Shown here: positions 6,855 to 40,427 of the stretch, one piece after another
Layout of the letters: every line of letters starts with the position of its first letter
Position numbering within the stretch: the stretch's first letter is position 1
NCBI RefSeq assembly: GCF_000420805.1
Contig: NZ_ATVQ01000003.1
Span: 1 to 64,000, forward strand
Source of the DNA: Yaniella halotolerans DSM 15476
Lineage (GTDB): Bacteria; Actinomycetota; Actinomycetes; Actinomycetales; Micrococcaceae
Direction of reading: 5' to 3'
Length of the DNA: 64,000 bases
Made by a program: the position numbers and the translations under genes
The notes under the pieces: generated by a model
Seen by the model: the letters and a program-made list of their open reading frames with translations, nothing else
Database searches by the model: none
What the model was told of the DNA's origin: nothing

Positions 6855-7350
6855 CTCATGAAGAAGGGCCCGCTGGGTGGCCATTGCAATCACAGGGGCA
6901 TCCCGTCTGATCCTAGGAAAAGAAAAATCCTCCAGTAATGCCCAGAAACCGCTAAAATATAGAGAATCTAGTCGCTGTGACAGGAAGGAGACTGAGCCAC
7001 GATGGGCCATACCGACTCCGTGATCCATCACGAATTCGAAATGCCTGCCCGTGATTTTTCGTCTTCTCTTGTCTGTCGAGGCCGAAACAGCATGCTTGAC
7101 CCTGGTCTCAACCAACGATCAACATCGAGCATGCCTCGAGACAATACGGCAGGTATGCAAGGTCTTGCCATACTGTGGAATGGCCACGTCGTGAGTGCCG
7201 CGACCAGAACCGCTCACATGTGGGCCGATATTCCTGTCGAACGCCGACAAAGTTTACGGCAGAAGCTTTCCAATTATCCAAAAATATGCAGTCCGACTCC
7301 TGTGCGTCACAACGCCGTGCAGATCTGCAGGTCACAAAGAATTGAAAACA
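6855..7350. other. 496-base region before glmM, no confident gene
   Basis: No recognised coding sequence. A TAAAAT at 6953-6958 and a strong AGGAAGGAG at 6982-6990 precede an ATG at 7002 that opens 118 codons. The reading overlaps the glmM start and its composition looks random, so I do not call it. Two imperfect hairpins are visible: one around a GCATGC within 7128-7142, and one pairing GTATG-CAAG with CTTGC-CATAC within 7153-7172. The glmM promoter must be in this stretch but I cannot place it firmly. Confidence 0.35.
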
Positions 7351-8694
7351 ATGTCTAAATTATTTGGTACCGACGGTGTTCGAGGCGTAGCCAACGAGAA
7401 AATCACCGTTGAACTTGCAACGAAACTCTCTCAGGCAGCGGCCGAAGTCCTCGGCCATGAAGACTCTGCCAACCGCCGTCCGAAAGCCGTCGTTGCTCGA
7501 GACCCACGAATCTCGTCGGAATTTATTAACGCTGCCGTGTCAGCGGGCTTGGCCTCCTCGGGGGTCGATGTTTTCGACGCTGGAGTGCTACCAACGCCTG
7601 CAGCTGCCTTTCTCGTGGATGATATCAACGCCGACTTCGGCGTGATGATTTCGGCGTCGCACAACCCGGCACCAGATAATGGCATCAAATTCTTATCCCG
7701 CGGCGGTGAGAAGCTCACCGACGCACAAGAAGACCGCATTTTGGAACAGCTGGAGCACGAGCCTCGCCGACCGATCGGAGCAGAGGTTGGTCGCGTACGT
7801 CGCTTCTCGGATGCAGAAGACCGTTATGCACTGCACCTGCTGAAGACGATGCCGAATCGGCTAGAAGGCATGAAGATCGTTATCGATGCCGCACACGGTG
7901 CTGGTTCCGGGGTGGCACCAGAGGTGTTCACGCAAGCCGGTGCCGAAGTAGTAGTGATCGGTGCCGACCCGGATGGCTTGAACATCAACCACAATTACGG
8001 TTCAACCCACATGGAGAATCTCCAGGCCGCCGTGCTCGAGCACGGCGCGGATCTCGGTGTCGCACTCGACGGCGACGCCGATCGTTTCCTTGCAGTCGAT
8101 CACAAGGGAACCATCGTTGACGGTGACCAGATCATGGCAATGATGGCTGTTGCGCTTAAGGATCAGGGGGCGCTGAAGGACGATACCCTCGTGGTGACGG
8201 TGATGAGTAACCTCGGTCTGAAATTGGCGATGCAGCAACACGATATCAACGTGGTCGAGACGAAAGTGGGCGACCGCTACGTCCTAGAAGCAATGGCTGC
8301 CAATCAGGCTTCGTTAGGCGGTGAGCAGTCAGGGCATATTATCTTCTCACAATGGGCTACCACCGGAGACGGGATCCTGACCGGCCTGCAGCTCGCGGCC
8401 CGCATGAACGCCACCAAGAAGAAGTTGGCCGATCTGGCGACCGTTATGACACGTTTGCCGCAGGTCTTGATTAATGTGAAAGACGTAGACAAAGCTGCGG
8501 TCGATAGCCACTCGGTCGTGAAACAAGAAGTGGTCGCCGTTGAATCCCAACTCGGAGAAACAGGACGGGTCTTGTTGCGACAGTCAGGTACCGAGCCAGT
8601 CGTTCGTGTCATGGTTGAAGCCGCTGATAAAGCCACCGCGCAGCAACAAGCACAGTACTTAGCTGATGTGGTATCCGAGAACCTGCCACTGTGA
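7351..8694 (+). CDS. glmM: Phosphoglucosamine mutase
   Basis: GlmM converts glucosamine-6-phosphate to glucosamine-1-phosphate for UDP-N-acetylglucosamine and cell wall synthesis in the cytoplasm. The start at 7351 gives the canonical N-terminus ([10 protein letters not shown]). The phosphoserine loop Ser-Ala-Ser-His-Asn-Pro places the catalytic Ser at 103, the metal loop Asp-Gly-Asp-Ala-Asp-Arg is present, and the sugar loop Gly-Glu-Gln-Ser-Gly-His and C-terminal Arg-x-Ser-Gly-Thr-Glu-Pro are intact. 447 residues is typical. The frame stays open upstream to 7195, but that extension has no homology signal. rplM-rpsI-glmM are normally neighbours in actinobacteria; here 5.6 kb separate them. 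Confidence 0.96.
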
Positions 8695-11774: not shown

Positions 11775-12767
11775 TTGGCTAGTGCCGATGACCAGGTCAA
11801 ATCACCGGCCAACAGCACCGGGCTCATGCAGGCTTTCTTGGCCTACTCCCTTTGGGGCGCACTCCCCATAGTATTTGCTCTGTACATGACGCCCAACCCC
11901 GTCGATCTTCTGTCGTGGCGCATTGTGATGGCGCTTGGTGTAACGCTGGTTGCGGTCGCAATCGTCCGGGGCGGTTGGCAACGCTTGGGCAAGGTGCTGA
12001 AAAATCGGCGCGACCATTTGCTGCTGATCTTAGCGGGCCATCTGATTGCGGTGAACTGGGGACTCTATATTTATGCTGTTGCCAGCCATCGAGTCCTTGA
12101 AGCCTCGTTGGGATATTTCATCAATCCGTTGATGACCATTGTGCTCGGCGTCGTCCTCCTAGGGGAGCGCTTGCGTCTTTTGCAATGGATCGCCGTGGGC
12201 ATTTCATTGATAGCCGTCATCGTTCTGACTTTCGACTATGGAAATCTGCCGTGGGTATCACTTGGTCTAGCGAGTTCGTTCGCCTTCTACGGTTTAGTGA
12301 AAAACAAGCTGGGGCCCACGGTGGATTCCTTGACCGGCCTAACGGTGGAGACCATGTGGTTATCGATCCCCTCGACGGTGTGGATTGTGTTGGCGTCTTT
12401 GGGCATCTTTGCTACCGCAGGTGGGATCGGGGTCTTCGAATCCTTTGACGCCATTCGTGCATACTCCTTACCGGTCGTCGGAATCATTACGGTGGTCCCA
12501 TTGGTGCTCTTCGCAGGAGCTGCCGCACGTTTACCCCTGTCAACCGTCGGAATGTTCCAATACATTGCTCCGATCGCCCAGTTCCTCTTCGGGTATTTCG
12601 TTTTCGAAGAAGTGATGTCGACCGGGCGCTGGGTTGGGTTCATTCTCGTGTGGCTTGCCGTGCTGATATTGATCAGCGATGTCCTTCGCCAAATCCGACA
12701 AAATCCGAAGTTACGTATCAAAACATCACAACAGTCACGTGAAGAAAAGGTAGACTACCAAGCATGA
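11775..12767 (+). CDS. rarD: RarD-type EamA family transporter
   Basis: Polytopic membrane protein of the drug/metabolite transporter superfamily. 330 residues with about ten hydrophobic segments. The N-terminal RarD hallmark (Leu-Trp-Gly-x-x-Pro followed by the Leu-Leu-Ser-Trp-Arg-Ile motif) and Phe-Ile-Asn-Pro-Leu are present. TTG start at 11775 with AGGAGG 4 nt upstream; no other in-frame start fits as well. Its last 4 nt overlap acpS. Substrate unknown: RarD was named from a chloramphenicol-sensitivity phenotype and its real cargo is uncertain. It occupies the place where glmS might be expected in related genomes. Confidence 0.88.
12751..12756 (+). promoter_or_regulatory. -10 box TAGACT for acpS
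   Basis: TAGACT ends seven bases before the acpS ATG, inside the 3' end of rarD. The same TAGACT-N7-start arrangement occurs before guaA and the TPR gene, so acpS may have its own leaderless transcript besides read-through from rarD. Confidence 0.45.
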
Positions 12768-13114
12768 TCATTGGCATTGGTGTGGACATGGTTGATATTG
12801 CGCGCTTCGAGCGGCAGTTAGAGCGGACTCCAAAACTCCGTGACCGGTTGTTTACCCCCGCAGAGCGAGAGCTCAGTCTCCAATCATTGGCTGCACGTTT
12901 TGCAGCGAAAGAAGCAGTCGCCAAAGCCCTCTCTGCACCGGCCGGCATGAACTGGCAGCACTGCCAAATTGGTCGCGAACCTTCGGGTGAACCCTACGTG
13001 GTGCTCACCGGCACGGTGGCTGATATCGCTGAGGCCAAAGGCGTACGGCGCTGGCACCTCTCGCTATCCCACGACGGTGGATGGGCCACAGCAATGGTTG
13101 TCGCAGAGGGCTAA
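12764..13114 (+). CDS. acpS: Holo-[acyl-carrier-protein] synthase
   Basis: AcpS transfers 4'-phosphopantetheine from CoA to the serine of acyl carrier protein. 116 residues, normal for the family. It has the Gly-Ile-Gly-x-Asp-x-Val-Asp-Ile-Ala-Arg motif with the metal Asp at 8, the Arg-Phe-Ala-Ala-Lys-Glu-Ala motif, and a His-x-Ser-Leu-Ser-His-Asp end. It overlaps rarD by ATGA upstream and nnr downstream (TAATG), so it is tightly coupled. CoA supply comes from coaA just across the divergent promoter. Confidence 0.95.
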
Positions 13115-29086: not shown

Positions 29087-29110
29087 CGAACTGTTCTTCT
29101 GAAACCTTCA

Positions 29111-29149
29111 AACAGAACCTCTGCCCACTCGCTGGGCAGAGGTTCTGTT
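29111..29149 (+). terminator. Terminator after groL
   Basis: Perfect 17-bp inverted repeat (29111-29127 with 29133-29149) around a 5-nt loop, GC-rich at the apex with an AACA/TGTT base. It closes the groES-groL operon 24 nt after the stop. Confidence 0.88.
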
Positions 29150-29265
29150 GGTTAACAGCATCAGGGGTGGACAACTCACAGCAGTACGACAATGCTGGAA
29201 AGTGGTTGGTCGCAGCAGCGGCTAGCAAATGCAAAGAAGCTGAGCTTCTATCTAAGGAGGAGCAC

Positions 29266-29688
29266 ATGAAAACTCCCGAAAACATTGCATACACTGCCAA
29301 AGCAGAAATCACAGGTGGTCGCGATGGCCGTGGTACCACCGACGACGAAATGATTGATGTCAACCTACGCACCCCGAAAGAACAGGGCGGACCAGGAGGC
29401 GGCGCAAATCCAGAACAGCTGTTTGCTGTCGGCTACGGCGCCTGCTTTCAAAGCGCACTGGGCTTAGCCGGTAAAGAACTGGACGTTGATACGACGGACT
29501 CCGTCGTGAACGCAGAGGTCGGTATTGGCAAAGAAGGCGAAAGTTTCGGCCTGTCCATCAAACTGCAGGTCAATATTCCCAAGACTGATAAAGCAACGGC
29601 CCAACAGGTCGTGGATCGCACCCACCAGCTCTGCCCATATTCCAAAGCCATCAGTGGCAATATTCCCGTCGAAGTCGTGGCCGTGTGA
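29266..29688 (+). CDS. ohr: Organic hydroperoxide resistance protein (Ohr family)
   Basis: Thiol peroxidase that reduces organic and fatty-acid hydroperoxides. The start at 29266 has an AAGGAGG site and gives 140 residues, the family norm; the frame is open further upstream without support. The reactive cysteine is Cys60 in Tyr-Gly-Ala-Cys-Phe, and the resolving Cys123 lies in Leu-Cys-Pro-Tyr-Ser, which separates Ohr from OsmC. No OhrR-type regulator is adjacent. Confidence 0.93.
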   Translation: MKTPENIAYTAKAEITGGRDGRGTTDDEMIDVNLRTPKEQGGPGGGANPEQLFAVGYGACFQSALGLAGKELDVDTTDSVVNAEVGIGKEGESFGLSIKLQVNIPKTDKATAQQVVDRTHQLCPYSKAISGNIPVEVVAV

Positions 29689-29797
29689 AATAGCCCGTGT
29701 CCGATGAATAAGCGTGAACCCCGGCAGTGTGATCAGCCGGGGTTTTCACGTAGAAATCAGGCCGAGGCGTAAAGTATGAGGCCGCATGGTCCAAAAG

Positions 29798-29826
29798 TTC
29801 TCAAAAAATTTTGCACGGGCTATACT
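29798..29826 (+). promoter_or_regulatory. Promoter of the gcv operon
   Basis: TTCTCA 29798-29803, 17 nt, TATACT 29821-29826. The -10 is close to consensus and sits 38 nt before the riboswitch, so the aptamers would be the first structured part of the transcript. Confidence 0.6.
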
Positions 29827-29863
29827 GTGAGCCGACACATAATTGAATGCGGCCGTACATAGC

Positions 29864-30037
29864 AGGCGGGAGAGCCCAGTAAATGGGCACCGACGGTGCA
29901 ACTTCCTCCCCAGGAATCTCTCAGGTACCCTTACCGTCTACTACAGGCCAATCTGGAAAGCAGTCGTCGCATAGACGGCTCACCGACGGGGCAACCAGCT
30001 ACTGGAAAACTCTCAGGTCGATAACAGATGGGGAGGG
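29864..30037 (+). ncRNA. Tandem glycine riboswitch
   Basis: Two glycine aptamers in series. Aptamer 1 opens with GGCGGGAGAGCCC and closes with TCTCTCAGGTACC; aptamer 2 opens at AATCTGGAAAGCAG and closes with CTCTCAGGTCGATAACAGA. Each has the conserved ACCGACGGnGCAA core (29872-29940 and about 29980-30000). The element ends about 38 nt before the gcvP start and controls the glycine cleavage operon in response to glycine, as in many bacteria. Short open frames through it are artefacts. Confidence 0.92.
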
Positions 30038-30075
30038 GTCCACGGATAACGCTGTATCCATACTTAGGAGATCCC

Positions 30076-32910
30076 ATGGCTGTCTATGATCTAGCCAACT
30101 TTGCTCATCGTCACCTCGGACCGCGCGAATCCGGCATTGCAGAAATGCTGGAAACACTCGGCTATGAGGACCTAGATGCGCTCACCACCGCGGCAATGCC
30201 AGAAAATATTGCCCAAGATGAACCACTTGTTCTACCCGATGCGCTCACCGAAACCCAGGCCCAAGCCCGACTCCGTGAACTAGCAGCAAAAAACACTGTC
30301 AAGAAAACCATGATCGGTCAGGGCTTCTACGACACGATCACCCCCGCCGTCATCCGCCGCAACGTCTTTGAAAACCCAGGCTGGTACACCGCTTACACGC
30401 CCTATCAGCCGGAAATCTCCCAGGGCCGTCTTGAAGCCCTGCTGAACTACCAGACCATGGTGTCAGACCTGACCGGCTTAGAAATTGCCAACGCTTCGAT
30501 GTTGGACGAATCCTCGGCCGCAGCAGAAGCCGTACTCATGATGCGCCGCGCCAACCGCAAGCACTCAGATGCGCCCGTGGTTATCGACAAAAATATCTTC
30601 CCACAGACCCTGTCAGTCATCCTGGGACGCACCCGTTCGCTCGGTGTTGAAACCCACCTTGTCGATCTCGCTACCGAAGGCCTACCAGAAGGCGATCTGT
30701 GCGGTGTGCTGGTCCAGCAGCCGGGCAACGACGGCGCGATCGTTGACCACCAGACCATTTTCGACGAGGCCAAAGAACGTGGCGCCATGATCAGTGTGAT
30801 CGCCGATCTGCTGTCCCTGACGCTGATCACACCCCCTGGTGAACAAGGGGCTGACATTGCGGTGGGCACGACCCAGCGTTTTGGTGTGCCACTGTTCTAC
30901 GGTGGACCACACGCCGCCTACATGGCCACCAAAGAACGCTTCGTCCGCCAAATGCCAGGCCGCCTGGTTGGTGTTTCCCAAGATGCTTCCGGAACACCGG
31001 CATACCGGCTGGCACTGCAGACACGCGAACAACACATTCGCCGTGAAAAAGCCACCTCGAACATCTGTACCGCACAAGCACTTCTGGCCGTGATGGCCGG
31101 CATGTACGGCGTCTACCACGGCCCCGAAGGCGTTACTGAAATTGCCCAGCGCACCCACTCCATGGCAAGCCGTCTGGCAGCATCGCTGCGCTCGGGTGGC
31201 TTTGAACTGGCCTCCGAACACTTCTTCGACACCCTTGTGGTGACCGTTGATGACGTCGCCGCAACCATGACCAAGGCCGATGACGCAGGCTACAACCTGC
31301 GTCGCTTCTCGGATACCCAGGTCGGTATCTCCATGGATGAGACCACCACCGACGCGGATCTGAAAGCCCTGGCTTCGGTCTTTGGTGTTGAACTTGCGGC
31401 CTCATCAGAGTCAGCCATTGATTCGGCGTTGGTTCGTGAATCGGAATTCATGACGCACGAGATTTTCCAGAAGATCCGTTCCGAATCCACCATGATGCGT
31501 TATTGCCGTCGTCTGGCAGACCGCGATCTCGCGTTAGACCGCACCATGATCCCACTGGGGTCGTGCACGATGAAACTCAACGCAGCCGCCGAAATGGAAG
31601 CCACCGCCTGGCCGGAATTTGCTGGCATCCACCCCTATGTTCCCACCGAACAGGCCGCAGGGTGGATCGAGCTGATCGAAGATCTGGAATCCAAACTCGA
31701 AGCGATCACCGGCTACGCGGCGGTGTCACTCCAACCAAATGCGGGTTCACAGGGTGAATACGCCGGACTGCAGGCGATCCGCCAGTACCTGAACTCCAAG
31801 GGCGAGACGCAGCGCGATATCTGCATCATCCCGGCATCCGCTCACGGTACCAACGCCGCGTCGGCAGTCCTGGCTGGTCTACAAGTCAGCGTTGTCAAAA
31901 CCGCTGACGATGGTTCGATTGATTCCGATCACCTGGATGAGGTCCTAGAAAAATACGGTGATCGCATCGCCGCGATCATGATTACCTACCCATCGACCGC
32001 CGGTATCTACGACACAGACGTTGTCGAGATCTGCGAAAAGATTCACAACGCAGGCGGACAGGTCTACATCGACGGCGCAAACCTCAACGCCCTGGTCGGC
32101 CTGGCCCAGCCGGGTAAATTTGGTGGCGATGTGTCCCACCTGAACCTGCACAAAACCTTTGCCATCCCACACGGTGGTGGTGGCCCCGGTGTAGGACCAG
32201 TCTGCGTGGCCGAACATCTCAAACCACACCTGCCGGCGAACCCCAACGGCCCACTGCCAGAAGACTCCACACCGGTTGCCTCAACTCTGTACGGTTCAGC
32301 AGGCGTGTTGCCCATCACCTGGGCATACGTCTCGATGATGGGTGCGCCAGCACTCAAAGAAGCAACCCAAGTTGCCGTGCTCTCGGCAAACTACCTGGCA
32401 CACCGCCTCAAGGAGCACTACCCGCTGCTCTACACCGGTCTCAACGGGCTCGTGGCACACGAATGCATTTTGGATTTGCGTGAGCTCACCAAGCAAACCG
32501 GTGTCACAGCCGAAGACGTGGCCAAACGTCTCATGGACTTCGGATTCCACGCACCAACCATGGCCTTCCCGGTACCGGGCACCCTCATGGTTGAACCAAC
32601 CGAATCCGAAGACCTGGAAGAAATCGAACGGTTCATCACCGCGATGGTCACCATTCGTGAAGAAATCGACGAAATCGCCAACGACAAGGTGTCCTTGGAA
32701 GCCTCTGTGCTGCGCAACGCTCCGCATACGGTAGCCGATGTCGTGTCATCAGACTGGGACCGCGCATACTCCGTTGAACAAGCGGCCTTCCCGGTTCCAG
32801 AACTGCGGGTGGATAAATACTTCACCCCGGTCTCGCGCATTGATCAGGCTGGTGGCGACCGCAACCTGATCTGCTCTTGCCCACCACCTGAAGCGTTCGA
32901 AATCGACTAG
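30076..32910 (+). CDS. gcvP: Glycine dehydrogenase (decarboxylating), P protein
   Basis: PLP-dependent P protein of the glycine cleavage system. It decarboxylates glycine and passes the aminomethyl group to lipoyl-GcvH. 944 residues, a full-length fused alpha-beta P protein. The PLP lysine is Lys693 in Leu-His-Lys-Thr-Phe, followed by the Ile-Pro-His-Gly-Gly-Gly-Gly-Pro-Gly loop. The start at 30076 has TAGGAG upstream and lies just past the riboswitch; an in-frame ATG at 30028 would fall inside the aptamer and is rejected. gcvT follows after 10 nt. Confidence 0.96.
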   Translation: MAVYDLANFAHRHLGPRESGIAEMLETLGYEDLDALTTAAMPENIAQDEPLVLPDALTETQAQARLRELAAKNTVKKTMIGQGFYDTITPAVIRRNVFENPGWYTAYTPYQPEISQGRLEALLNYQTMVSDLTGLEIANASMLDESSAAAEAVLMMRRANRKHSDAPVVIDKNIFPQTLSVILGRTRSLGVETHLVDLATEGLPEGDLCGVLVQQPGNDGAIVDHQTIFDEAKERGAMISVIADLLSLTLITPPGEQGADIAVGTTQRFGVPLFYGGPHAAYMATKERFVRQMPGRLVGVSQDASGTPAYRLALQTREQHIRREKATSNICTAQALLAVMAGMYGVYHGPEGVTEIAQRTHSMASRLAASLRSGGFELASEHFFDTLVVTVDDVAATMTKADDAGYNLRRFSDTQVGISMDETTTDADLKALASVFGVELAASSESAIDSALVRESEFMTHEIFQKIRSESTMMRYCRRLADRDLALDRTMIPLGSCTMKLNAAAEMEATAWPEFAGIHPYVPTEQAAGWIELIEDLESKLEAITGYAAVSLQPNAGSQGEYAGLQAIRQYLNSKGETQRDICIIPASAHGTNAASAVLAGLQVSVVKTADDGSIDSDHLDEVLEKYGDRIAAIMITYPSTAGIYDTDVVEICEKIHNAGGQVYIDGANLNALVGLAQPGKFGGDVSHLNLHKTFAIPHGGGGPGVGPVCVAEHLKPHLPANPNGPLPEDSTPVASTLYGSAGVLPITWAYVSMMGAPALKEATQVAVLSANYLAHRLKEHYPLLYTGLNGLVAHECILDLRELTKQTGVTAEDVAKRLMDFGFHAPTMAFPVPGTLMVEPTESEDLEEIERFITAMVTIREEIDEIANDKVSLEASVLRNAPHTVADVVSSDWDRAYSVEQAAFPVPELRVDKYFTPVSRIDQAGGDRNLICSCPPPEAFEID

Positions 32911-32920
32911 GAGCCTGCAC

Positions 32921-34021
32921 ATGACTTTGAAAACTACCGCATTGTTTGAGGCTCACGACGCGCTAGGCGCAAGCTTCACCGATTTCAACGGCTGGAACAT
33001 GCCGCTGAAATACTCCTCAGAAATCACCGAGCACAAGGCCGTTCGCGAAGCCGTGGGGATCTTCGACCTGTCACACATGGGCGAAATCTTTGTTACCGGC
33101 GCCGACGCCGTCAAAGGGCTTAACACCGCCCTGGCCGGGGATTTCTCCAAGATGACCATTGGCCGGGCAAAATATACGGTCATGCTCACCGAACAGGGCA
33201 CGATCCTCGATGACCTGATCGTCTACCGGCTAGGGGAGGACCGCTACCTGTTGGTCCCCAATGCCGGGAACGCCGAAGCCGTCGCCGAGGCCGTGACCGA
33301 GCGGTTGGCCGGCTTGGACGCGACCATCGACGATGCCACGGACCGGCTGTCACTGCTGGGCATCCAGGGGCCACAGGCACAAGACGTGGTCGCAGCCCTG
33401 GGTGCAGAATTTGCCGAAGCAGCCTCGTCATTGAAAAACTATCGCGTCACCCAACTGACGGTGGACGGTAGCGAATGGATCGTGGCCCGCACGGGGTACA
33501 CGGGTGAAGATGGATTTGAAATCATCACCCCCAACGACCAGGTGAATCATTTATGGAACCGCATCTTCGCAGCCGATACCGGAGTCGAGGTCACCGCGTG
33601 TGGCTTGGCCAGCCGTGACTCGCTGCGACTGGAAGCCGGGATGCCACTGTACGGCAACGAACTCTCGCGCGAACGTACACCGTTTGAAGCCGGTATGGGA
33701 CGGATCGTGTCCTTCGACAAACCAGAAAACTTTGTCGGACGCGCAGCGCTGGAACCACACCGCGAAACAGCCCCCGCACAAGTTTTGGTCGGCCTGACCA
33801 GCGACCAACGTCGCGCCGGACGCAGTGGCGCAACGATCGTCCTTGATGGTCAAACCATAGGCGTCGTGACCTCCGGGATCCCATCGCCCACAATGTCCCA
33901 ACCGGTAGCACTGGGCTACATCGATGCCGAACACGCGGCAGTCGATACCGCCGTGGACGTCGAGATTCGCGGCAAAGCACTACCGTTTGTCATCACCAAA
34001 CCCCCGTTCTACACTCGCTAA
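32921..34021 (+). CDS. gcvT: Aminomethyltransferase, T protein
   Basis: Releases ammonia from the aminomethyl-lipoyl arm of GcvH and passes the one-carbon unit to tetrahydrofolate. 366 residues with the conserved Asp-Leu-Ser-His-Met-Gly segment, Leu-Gly-Ile-Gln-Gly-Pro, [11 protein letters not shown] and the C-terminal Gly-Tyr-x-x-x-Glu region. AGGAGCC ribosome site. Middle gene of the gcvPTH operon. Confidence 0.96.
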
Positions 34022-34040
34022 CCCAAACGAAGGACCCATC

Positions 34041-34421
34041 ATGACAGTAGTTAAACCCGCACTGCGCTACTCCGCTGAACACGAATGGCTCAACGACGAG
34101 GACCCGGTACGCATCGGCATTACCGACTACGCTGCCGATCAACTCGGTGACGTCGTGTTCGCTGAACTCCCAGAAGTTGGCGACACCGTAACCGCCGGCG
34201 AAGTCTGTGGCGAACTGGAATCCACCAAATCGGTGTCCGAACTCTACTCGCCAGTGACCGGAACGATCGTAGAATCCAATGAAGATGTCATCCAGAATCC
34301 GGAACGCATCAACGAAGACCCATACGGTGCCGGCTGGCTGTTCACCGTCGAGGTTTCAGAAGAAGGCCCCTTGCTAACCCCGGAGGAATACGCCGAGCAA
34401 ACCGAGGGCACCGTCGAGTAA
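34041..34421 (+). CDS. gcvH: Glycine cleavage system H protein
   Basis: Lipoyl carrier protein of the glycine cleavage system. 126 residues; the lipoylated lysine is Lys63 in Glu-Ser-Thr-Lys-Ser-Val-Ser, followed by Leu-Tyr-Ser-Pro-Val-x-Gly. The ATG at 34041 has AAGGAC upstream. A longer open frame into gcvT is discarded. No lipoylation enzyme or L protein gene is nearby, so those come from elsewhere. Confidence 0.96.
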
Positions 34422-34464
34422 AGAGCAGCGTGTTTGGCCCGGAAGTGTTCACGGTCTGCGATGA

Positions 34465-36094
<1,630 letters not shown>

Positions 36095-38831: not shown

Positions 38832-40427
38832 GTGATGACTACACCCCAAAACGCCACCGTTTCTGCTCAAGACACCGTCATCGTTGTGGACTACGGTTCA
38901 GACGACGCCCAACTCCTCGCTCGCCGCATTCGCGAAGCAAAAGTCTATTCGGAAGTGCACTCCTACACCTCCGGAGCCGACGCCATTCTCGGTGCACAGC
39001 CTGCAGCCCTGGTGCTTGCGGCTCGTTCCACGGTCACCGAAGACCTCCCGGAGATTGACCCGAAACTCTTGAACGCCGGGATTCCTGTACTGGCCATTGG
39101 TGGCGGCTTCCTGGCCATGACCCAAGCACTGGGTGGCACCGTGACACTCGATGCAGTCTCCAAAGAAGTCCTGTCCCTCGATACCGTCGACGATAATTCC
39201 ACGTTGTTTTCCGGCCAGCCGGCGACACAAGACGTGGCTACCAACCACGCTCACGTTATCACCGAGCCAAGCCAAGGTTTCGTGGTAACCGCCTCGCACG
39301 CTGCCATGCCGGTCGCAGCAGCCGAGCATCCGGAACAGCAGCTCTATGGCGTGCTGTGGAATCCCGGAGCACAGGATTCCACCCACGGTCAAGCCACCAT
39401 CAAGAACTTCCTGTTCATCGCCGCAGACCTGTCACCGCACTGGTCCGTCGAACAGGTCATCGAACAACAGGTTGCAAAGATTCGCGAGCAAATCGGTGAC
39501 AAGCGTGCACTGGTAGGACTCTCGGGTGGGGTTGACTCAGCCGTGGCAGCAGCCCTGGTACAGCGTGCCGTGGGCGATCAGCTGACCGCGGTGTATGTGA
39601 ACCACGGACTGATGCGCAAAGACGAGTCGGTAGAAATCGAACAGGCATTTGGGGCCTCCACCGGCGGCGCCAAATTGATCATGGTGGATGCCGAGGAAGA
39701 ATTCTTATCCGCACTGGACGGGGTGTCTGACCCGGAGGCTAAACGCAAGATCATCGGCGAACACTTCATTCGTACCTTCGAACGTGCACAAGCTGAAATC
39801 GTTGCGAAATCAGCCAATGATCCCAACGCGACCGATGTGCAGTTCTTGGTGCAAGGCACCGTCTATCCGGATGTCATCGAATCCGGTGACGCCGATGGTT
39901 CCAAAGTCATCAAATCCCACCACAACGTGGGCGGCTTACCCGAGGACATCGAATTTGAACTCGTGGAACCGTTGCGCCAGCTTTTCAAAGATGAAGTTCG
40001 GACCGTGGGCACAAAGCTTGGTCTGCCAGATGAGATCGTGTGGCGTCAACCATTCCCCGGACCCGGTCTTGGTATTCGTATCGTCGGTGCCGTCTCTAAA
40101 GAACGACTAGATCTGTTGCGCGAAGCTGACGCAATTGTGCGAGAAGAACTCACCGCATCAGGCCTTGACCGTGAGATCTGGCAATCACCCGTCGTCTTGC
40201 TTGCCGATGTACGCTCGGTCGGTGTTAACGACGGTGGACGTACCTACGGTCACCCCGTTGTATTGCGTCCAGTCCTATCCGAAGATGCCATGACCGCACG
40301 ATTTGCGCGTATTCCATATGACATCCTGGATCGTATTTCACAGCGCATCACCGAAGAGGTGGACGGAATCAACCGCGTGGTGCTGGACATTACCGGCAAA
40401 CCACCGGGAACTATCGAGTGGGAATAA
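38832..40427 (+). CDS. guaA: GMP synthase with degenerate glutaminase domain
   Basis: GuaA aminates XMP to GMP. The C-terminal ATP-pyrophosphatase half is intact: Ser-Gly-Gly-Val-Asp-Ser, Gln-Gly-Thr-x-Tyr-Pro-Asp, Pro-Phe-Pro-Gly-Pro-Gly-Leu, and the end Lys-Pro-Pro-Gly-Thr-Ile-Glu-Trp-Glu. The N-terminal class I glutamine amidotransferase half (about 1-195) keeps the fold-level pattern (Val-Val-Asp-Tyr-Gly) but lacks its catalytic residues. Where the family has Gly-Ile-Cys-Tyr-Gly-Phe this protein reads Ala-Ile-Gly-Gly-Gly-Phe (Cys to Gly90). Where the family has Trp-His-Pro-Glu it reads Trp-Asn-Pro-Gly (His to Asn177, Glu to Gly179). The Ser-Gly-Gly-Pro loop is Ala-Ala-Arg-Ser. It probably uses free ammonia or ammonia from another protein. 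531 residues from GTG 38832, or ATG three bases on. Confidence 0.93.

Follow-up and report, generated by a model that had tools for sequence, protein, structure and literature searches.

A GMP synthase with an apparently inactive glutaminase domain in Yaniella halotolerans and the wider loss of amidotransferase active sites in its genus

The guaA locus

The guaA gene of Yaniella halotolerans, predicted to encode a GMP synthase with an inactive glutaminase domain, lies on the + strand at 38832..40427 of the window, the whole stretch of 64,000 nucleotides that was analysed. The ORF comprises 531 amino acids and opens with a GTG codon directly followed by ATG, and its product reaches 614 bits against the full-length GMP synthase model NF000848 (cut-off 400). 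An N-terminal class I GATase-like domain, called here a pseudo-glutaminase (residues 15-203; 38874..39440, + strand), is followed by a conserved synthetase half consisting of the ATP pyrophosphatase and dimerisation parts (residues 204-531; 39441..40424, + strand). The N-terminal domain scores 54.1 bits against PF00117 (cut-off 22.8) and stays below the cut-off of TIGR00888 (guaA_Nterm; 106.4 bits, cut-off 172.15), and the synthetase half is recognized by TIGR00884 (449.9 bits, cut-off 338.75). GuaA also matches PF00958 (120.6 bits, cut-off 27). This is the single PF00958 match in the genome, whose assembly of 2,775,456 bases in 6 contigs is rated 100% complete, and a second conventional guaA, offered in the sequence-only reading as one possibility, is thus refuted.

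Upstream, an IMP dehydrogenase gene, identified by eye, occupies 34478..36094 on the + strand; its product makes XMP, the substrate of GuaA. It is syntenic with the relative G009, and the gene order around guaA as a whole matches that of this relative. Genes read by eye as gcvP, gcvT and gcvH are found at 30025-34421, between a groEL-like gene and the IMP dehydrogenase gene. It had been speculated that ammonia released by the gcvPTH products might matter for GuaA, but no ORF in positions 29107-34478 of the window (the gcv region) matches the G009 stretch that was compared, and the other dead amidotransferases of the genome are encoded on other contigs. Such a link is thus not supported.

A glutaminase site without its catalytic residues

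Codon 90 of guaA is GGT (Gly; 39099..39101, + strand) where the catalytic Cys stood, and codons 177-179 read Asn-Pro-Gly (177 AAT, 179 GGA; 39360..39368, + strand) where the catalytic His-Pro-Glu stood. In an alignment, Gly90, Asn177 and Gly179 share columns with the Cys, His and Glu of the solved GMP synthetases 1gpm, 5tw7 and 7sbc. Counting along the 1gpm line identifies the first of these columns as that of E. coli Cys86, and the His and Glu columns agree by alignment. The old SGGP loop is now AARS in the alignment (residues 63-66; 39018..39029, + strand). All of these replacements had been named in the sequence-only reading, and they hold. No shifted motif that would place the catalytic residues elsewhere within the domain is seen in the alignments with structures, genus members and outgroups.

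The changes extend beyond the triad. If positions that are invariant in 20 or more of 21 actinobacterial outgroups and in at least 90% of 77 diverse GuaA are taken as conserved, all nine genus members differ at 16 of the 40 such positions of the GATase half. For the synthetase half the count is 4 of 111; the conservation of this half, claimed earlier, is thereby borne out together with its TIGR00884 score. The genus-wide changes are far from chance and clustered in the glutaminase machinery: they affect the SGG loop, the WMSHGD motif and the neighbours of the nucleophile. The spacing of WMSHGD suggests that its final Asp corresponds to PfGMPS Asp172, whose replacement by Ala raises the Km for glutamine about 170-fold according to the available text of the source (PMC4673825). 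Glutamine binding by GuaA has therefore probably been lost as well. Family models label these proteins as glutamine-hydrolysing, which is probably wrong.

Distribution and evolution of the loss

The genus set comprises the nine searched genomes of Yaniella/Enteractinococcus (Micrococcaceae; G000-G008), Y. halotolerans included; four of the nine are rated 99-100% complete, G002 88% and G007 71%. The Cys/His/Glu triad is fully absent from GuaA in 9/9 genomes, so that the sister species share the loss first noticed as Gly/Asn/Gly in Y. halotolerans. The positions read Gly-Asn-Gly in four genomes, Gly-Asn-Ala in three, and Ser-Asp-Ala and Ser-Asn-Ala in one each. Outside the genus, the complete Cys-His-Glu triad is found in 96 of 98 rows and all three residues are lost in none. 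These rows are the GuaA of 21 outgroup genomes (50 were searched, 21 GuaA were aligned and 29 left out) and of 77 non-genus loci. The two exceptions lack only the Cys (Asn in L044, Ser in L056) and retain His and Glu. Both are distant MAGs, from Clostridiaceae and Candidatus Fermentithermobacillaceae respectively; the adjacent PurF of L044 and PurQ of L056 are intact by eye, with no sign of systemic loss.

A sequencing error or assembly artefact was rejected because the same loss occurs in nine genomes. Horizontal replacement of guaA is not favoured either, as guaA of the genus clusters with the intact genes of other Micrococcaceae and the gene order is as in G009. In a tree of the synthetase half, one branch (support 100/100) separates the 9 dead rows from the 21 intact ones, and the nearest outgroup to the genus is G024 (93/89).

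The guaA frame is open in all nine genus genomes. For the dead domain, dN/dS is 0.08-0.14 in five of six genus pairs (the computable ones), compared with 0.17-0.19 for the intact domain in two pairs, all of these values being rough with dS near saturation. The dead GuaA domain is still under purifying selection. With the triad gone and dN/dS this low, GuaA appears, as first proposed, to be a selected enzyme that cannot draw ammonia from glutamine through the known mechanism. Mean identities of the GATase and synthetase halves are.688 and.902 within the genus and.690 and.803 among outgroups; measured against the synthetase half, the GATase half has changed more quickly in the genus, where it is dead, than in outgroups, where it is live. 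This relative speed is what would be expected under relaxed selection in a purine-fed lineage, in which GMP comes mainly from salvage and the domain decays. However, the low dN/dS, the nine open frames and the highly conserved synthetase half speak against decay, and losses also affect enzymes of pyrimidine, folate and amino-sugar synthesis, which makes this explanation very unlikely. The sequence data would instead fit one loss on the genus stem, followed by constraint of another kind.

In a survey of the class with the GuaA N-terminal model, 385 of 394 genomes were above the cut-off. Among the nine that were not (by E-value), Y. halotolerans, G066, G115, G179, G209, G279, G361 and G365 gave weak matches and G080 none, although the model is non-specific at weak scores, with stand-alone TrpG/PabA also reaching 87-89 bits. 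G179, G209 and G279 belong to one genus, are each a single contig of 1.2 Mb and give only weak GuaA N-terminal matches; their GuaA may be missing or degenerate.

Other amidotransferases in the genus

What could not be seen from one window is that the loss is genus-wide and concerns several glutamine amidotransferases. A class I GATase family search gives weak scores across the whole genus. In CarA, the Cys is replaced by Gly and the His by Tyr in 8/8 genus genomes read, with the Glu kept; the triad is intact in 4/4 aligned outgroup genomes. The dead CarA is still above the CarA cut-offs and is followed by CarB. In PurQ, the Cys is replaced by Gly in 7/7 genus genomes and the His by Ser or Asn in 6/6 (one row is incomplete), again with the Glu kept; PurQ is intact in 2/2 outgroups, and genus PurQ falls under the PurQ cut-offs (180.9 bits vs 212). 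In a PabAB fusion, the PabA half has Gly for Cys in 6/6, with His-Pro-Glu unrecognisable in an alignment of genus rows only, and the PabB half reaches 292.8 bits where its cut-off is 328.4. The rows cover all genus genomes except G007 for CarA, HisH and PurF, G002 and G007 for PurQ, and G002, G005 and G007 for PabAB; the locus tried for PabAB of G005 (L252) gave no match.

Other members of the family are affected less or differently. The HisH triad is intact in 8/8 genus genomes read. PurF retains Cys1 in 8/8, and its RYSTTG and HNGN, which we take to be glutamine-site motifs, have become RYG(S/A).. and xNG(A/E) in the same 8/8, with the usual motifs in the one close outgroup copy (L164). Among class II proteins of the N-acetylglutaminylglutamine-amidotransferase type, the N-termini read MLT in G004, MVC in G005, MLS in G006 and MLC in G008, so that the Cys is replaced in two of four. 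In the other two it is shifted by one position, unless translation begins at the second codon. The one protein of this set that was scored, L151 of G005, reaches 701.6 bits against TIGR03104. AsnB-like proteins of G005 and G008 start with MSAI. NadE of Y. halotolerans is of the short form (PRK00768) and is uninformative here, as short ORFs occur in the genus and in both outgroups tested. Glutamine synthetase is present in 7/7 genus genomes tested, together with extra paralogues; for this reason glutamine is probably still made in the genus.

Azaserine, DON and acivicin are cysteine-directed glutamine antagonists. If such compounds were produced by the lineage or its neighbours, loss of the nucleophile could have conferred resistance, with ammonia use as a consequence. 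The common denominator of the changes is indeed the nucleophile of several different amidotransferases, and the altered N-termini of some class II members point the same way. Selection by antagonists is nonetheless unlikely: HisH and PurF retain the nucleophile throughout the genomes read, and the decay of GuaA reaches the oxyanion loop, the His and the Glu as well, beyond what resistance would need.

A different kind of protection would be from gamma-glutamyl amides. Intact glutaminases would cleave these glutamine look-alikes and feed methylamine into GMP and other products. The genus carries genes of the gamma-glutamylmethylamide-synthetase and N-methylglutamate-synthase types. In Y. halotolerans, a type III glutamate-ammonia ligase (TIGR03105, above cut-off) has a class II GATase and a GltB-like ORF in its vicinity (L258:4549-9157; C1:474.5-479.2 kb), and additional matches of the ligase type, at about 295-304 bits, occur in 7/7 genus genomes and 0/2 outgroups. 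The cluster resembles a gamma-glutamylmethylamide / N-methylglutamate cluster, and the class II GATase beside the type III ligase keeps its Cys in 7/7 loci read. Against this explanation, HisH is intact, and we know of no dead amidotransferases in methylotrophs that have the pathway. Moreover, both traits fall on one stem branch, which means that their correlation amounts to one event. Avoidance of look-alikes is accordingly considered quite improbable.

The seven PF00117 matches of Y. halotolerans are CarA, PabAB, HisH, GuaA and three further ORFs with intact motifs. The latter could in principle supply ammonia to GuaA, as could another hidden or moonlighting glutaminase such as HisH or a gamma-glutamyl hydrolase paralogue. 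However, two of the three ORFs, which were partly scanned, are under every curated cut-off (one reaches 43.5 bits vs 198 for GMP synthase subunit A), and all three share a stretch of 13 kb with a glutamine-synthetase-like gene, an arrangement like that of gamma-glutamyl-amine catabolism. The three ORFs read as gamma-glutamyl-GABA-hydrolase-like; with the glutamine-synthetase-like gene and an ORF that is aldehyde-dehydrogenase-like by eye, they occupy L259:4633-17796 (C1:1306.6-1319.8 kb), a cluster that suggests amine use. CarA, PurQ and PabA would also require partners. A stand-alone partner glutaminase, raised as a possibility at the outset, is thus not supported among the seven matches, and the chance that a hidden one serves GuaA is judged very slight indeed.

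Missing genes and the ancestral glmS site

Several amidotransferase genes were not found at all. With a full-length outgroup GlmS as query, 2/2 outgroups match over its whole length and 0/9 genus genomes match its isomerase half at E 0.001; the genus ORFs that the query does pick up encode PurF and another class II GATase. The GATase_2 domain of the GOGAT (GltB) large subunit is found in 0/9 genus genomes, 2/2 outgroups and 12/14 control genomes, and the N-domain of CTP synthase (PyrG) in 0/9 genus genomes, 3/3 outgroups and 14/14 controls. PyrG may have been lost before the genus arose, because the relatives G024 and G019 have no PyrG-like GATase match either. In 8 outgroups, the best PF00117 match (168-189 bits) is a stand-alone TrpG/PabA, identified by model in two of them. 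None is present among the seven PF00117 matches of Y. halotolerans, all of which were read. The other eight genus genomes give no TrpG-like PF00117 score, none of their best matches exceeding 128 bits (CarA in those that were read), with weak matches only partly read and a degenerate TrpG possible among them.

For glmS, the site of the loss can be placed within the window. About 26 kb upstream of guaA lie coaA (- strand), rarD, acpS, an nnrD-like gene and alr. The same gene order is found in G009, but there glmS and one more large ORF stand between rarD and acpS. In Y. halotolerans, the ancestral glmS site corresponds to 12743..12770 (+ strand), where the stop codon of rarD (12765-12767) overlaps the start of acpS (12764). 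The gene for phosphoglucosamine mutase, glmM, is kept at 7195..8691 (+ strand; a stop-to-stop ORF whose start is not fixed). Since glmM, the next amino-sugar enzyme, is retained without glmS, glucosamine-6-phosphate probably comes from elsewhere; a NagB-type ammonia route would be a guess. As CTP synthase and GlmS were not found in nine genomes, unrecognised routes to CTP and glucosamine-6-phosphate, or auxotrophy, may be expected.

A probable ammonia-dependent GMP synthase

The observations are probably best accounted for if GuaA is an ammonia-dependent GMP synthase with a pseudo-glutaminase, part of a genus-wide shift away from glutamine nitrogen whose driver would be ammonium at alkaline pH. 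The synthetase half would adenylate XMP with ATP as usual, and free NH3 from the ammonium pool of the cell, not from glutamine, would attack the intermediate to give GMP. We infer that the N-terminal pseudo-glutaminase is kept for folding, dimer geometry or control. The lineage would have largely stopped using glutamine as a general biosynthetic nitrogen donor, and abundant ammonium at alkaline pH is likely to have made glutaminase activity useless or wasteful.

As enzyme families, GlmS and GOGAT are poor ammonia users, and GuaA, CarAB and PabB can use ammonia. In the genus, the poor users are missing and the capable ones are kept with dead glutaminase sites, as use of free ammonia predicts. 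PyrG can use ammonia too, and its loss is therefore a misfit left unexplained by ammonia dependence. The intact HisH is a second misfit. Glutamine chemistry is not abolished in the genus, because HisH, Cys1 of PurF and the Cys of the class II GATase are retained.

The synthetase half of GuaA, in which only four conserved positions are changed throughout the genus, shows no obvious sign of having adapted to free ammonia. According to the available text of one source, most glutamine amidotransferases accept added ammonia, and the GMP synthetases studied favour glutamine, with a Km for NH4+ of up to 174 mM (PMC10526850). Lower values are given for PfGMPS in the part of the literature that could be consulted. 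The C89A mutant loses glutamine activity and keeps ammonia activity (PMC4673825), with a Km for NH4Cl of 8 mM compared with 19 mM for the wild type and a kcat with NH4Cl of 63 per min compared with 55 (PMC4673825, Table 2); for the C89A/C113A double mutant, the Km for NH4Cl is 2.8 mM (PMC4673825; PMC9312489). Such a GMP synthase could be supplied in a cell where ammonium is at mM levels and the pH is alkaline. As far as the accessible descriptions go, Enteractinococcus comes mainly from animal faeces and soil and grows at pH 7-11 with an optimum of 8. Yaniella has been detected in poultry litter (PMC9283091) and in late-ripening cheese and caves, the available text of the latter source making no mention of ammonia (PMC11055350). 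These habitats fit an ammonia-rich, alkaline setting, which would be the putative cause.

On balance, it seems that this free-living genus has largely abandoned glutamine nitrogen and makes its purines, pyrimidines, folate, amino sugars and glutamate with free ammonia, several conserved pseudo-glutaminases remaining as structural parts.

Relation to known systems and significance

GuaA of this genus resembles the C89A and C89A/C113A forms of PfGMPS in being a GMP synthase without the catalytic Cys; in the published portions available, those mutants have no glutamine activity and an ammonia activity that is kept or improved (PMC4673825; PMC9312489). They are, however, laboratory mutants changed at one or two residues, whereas here the Cys, His and Glu and other residues of the glutaminase site have been lost naturally and genus-wide. 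In the archaeal two-subunit GMP synthetase, subunit B (6jp9, 2dpl) is a synthetase that uses ammonia by itself, as stated in the accessible text (PMC10526850). There the GATase is a separate protein, whereas here it is fused and inactive. The short NadE, also present in Y. halotolerans, performs amidation without a glutaminase domain and, unlike GuaA, carries no pseudo-domain. Vertebrate carbamoyl-phosphate synthetase I is a natural ammonia-dependent amidotransferase that retains its GATase domain without the Cys. It is one enzyme in an ammonia-handling organelle, whereas several enzymes of one bacterial genus are concerned here.

An amidotransferase turned ammonia-dependent is thus already known from carbamoyl-phosphate synthetase I, and a joint loss that spans several amidotransferases of one genus is apparently unreported: no publication on it was found in the open-licence literature, available mostly as titles and the beginnings of abstracts, which is weak evidence that it is unpublished. 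To our knowledge, the carriage of nitrogen by glutamine, with ammonia channelled inside amidotransferases, is near universal. Four amidotransferases with different synthetase partners in which the nucleophile is lost, yet the proteins are kept, amount to a natural experiment. With this genus one could ask why the channelling of glutamine nitrogen is kept elsewhere, which non-catalytic roles glutaminase domains have and how much free ammonia is needed to do without glutamine hydrolysis.
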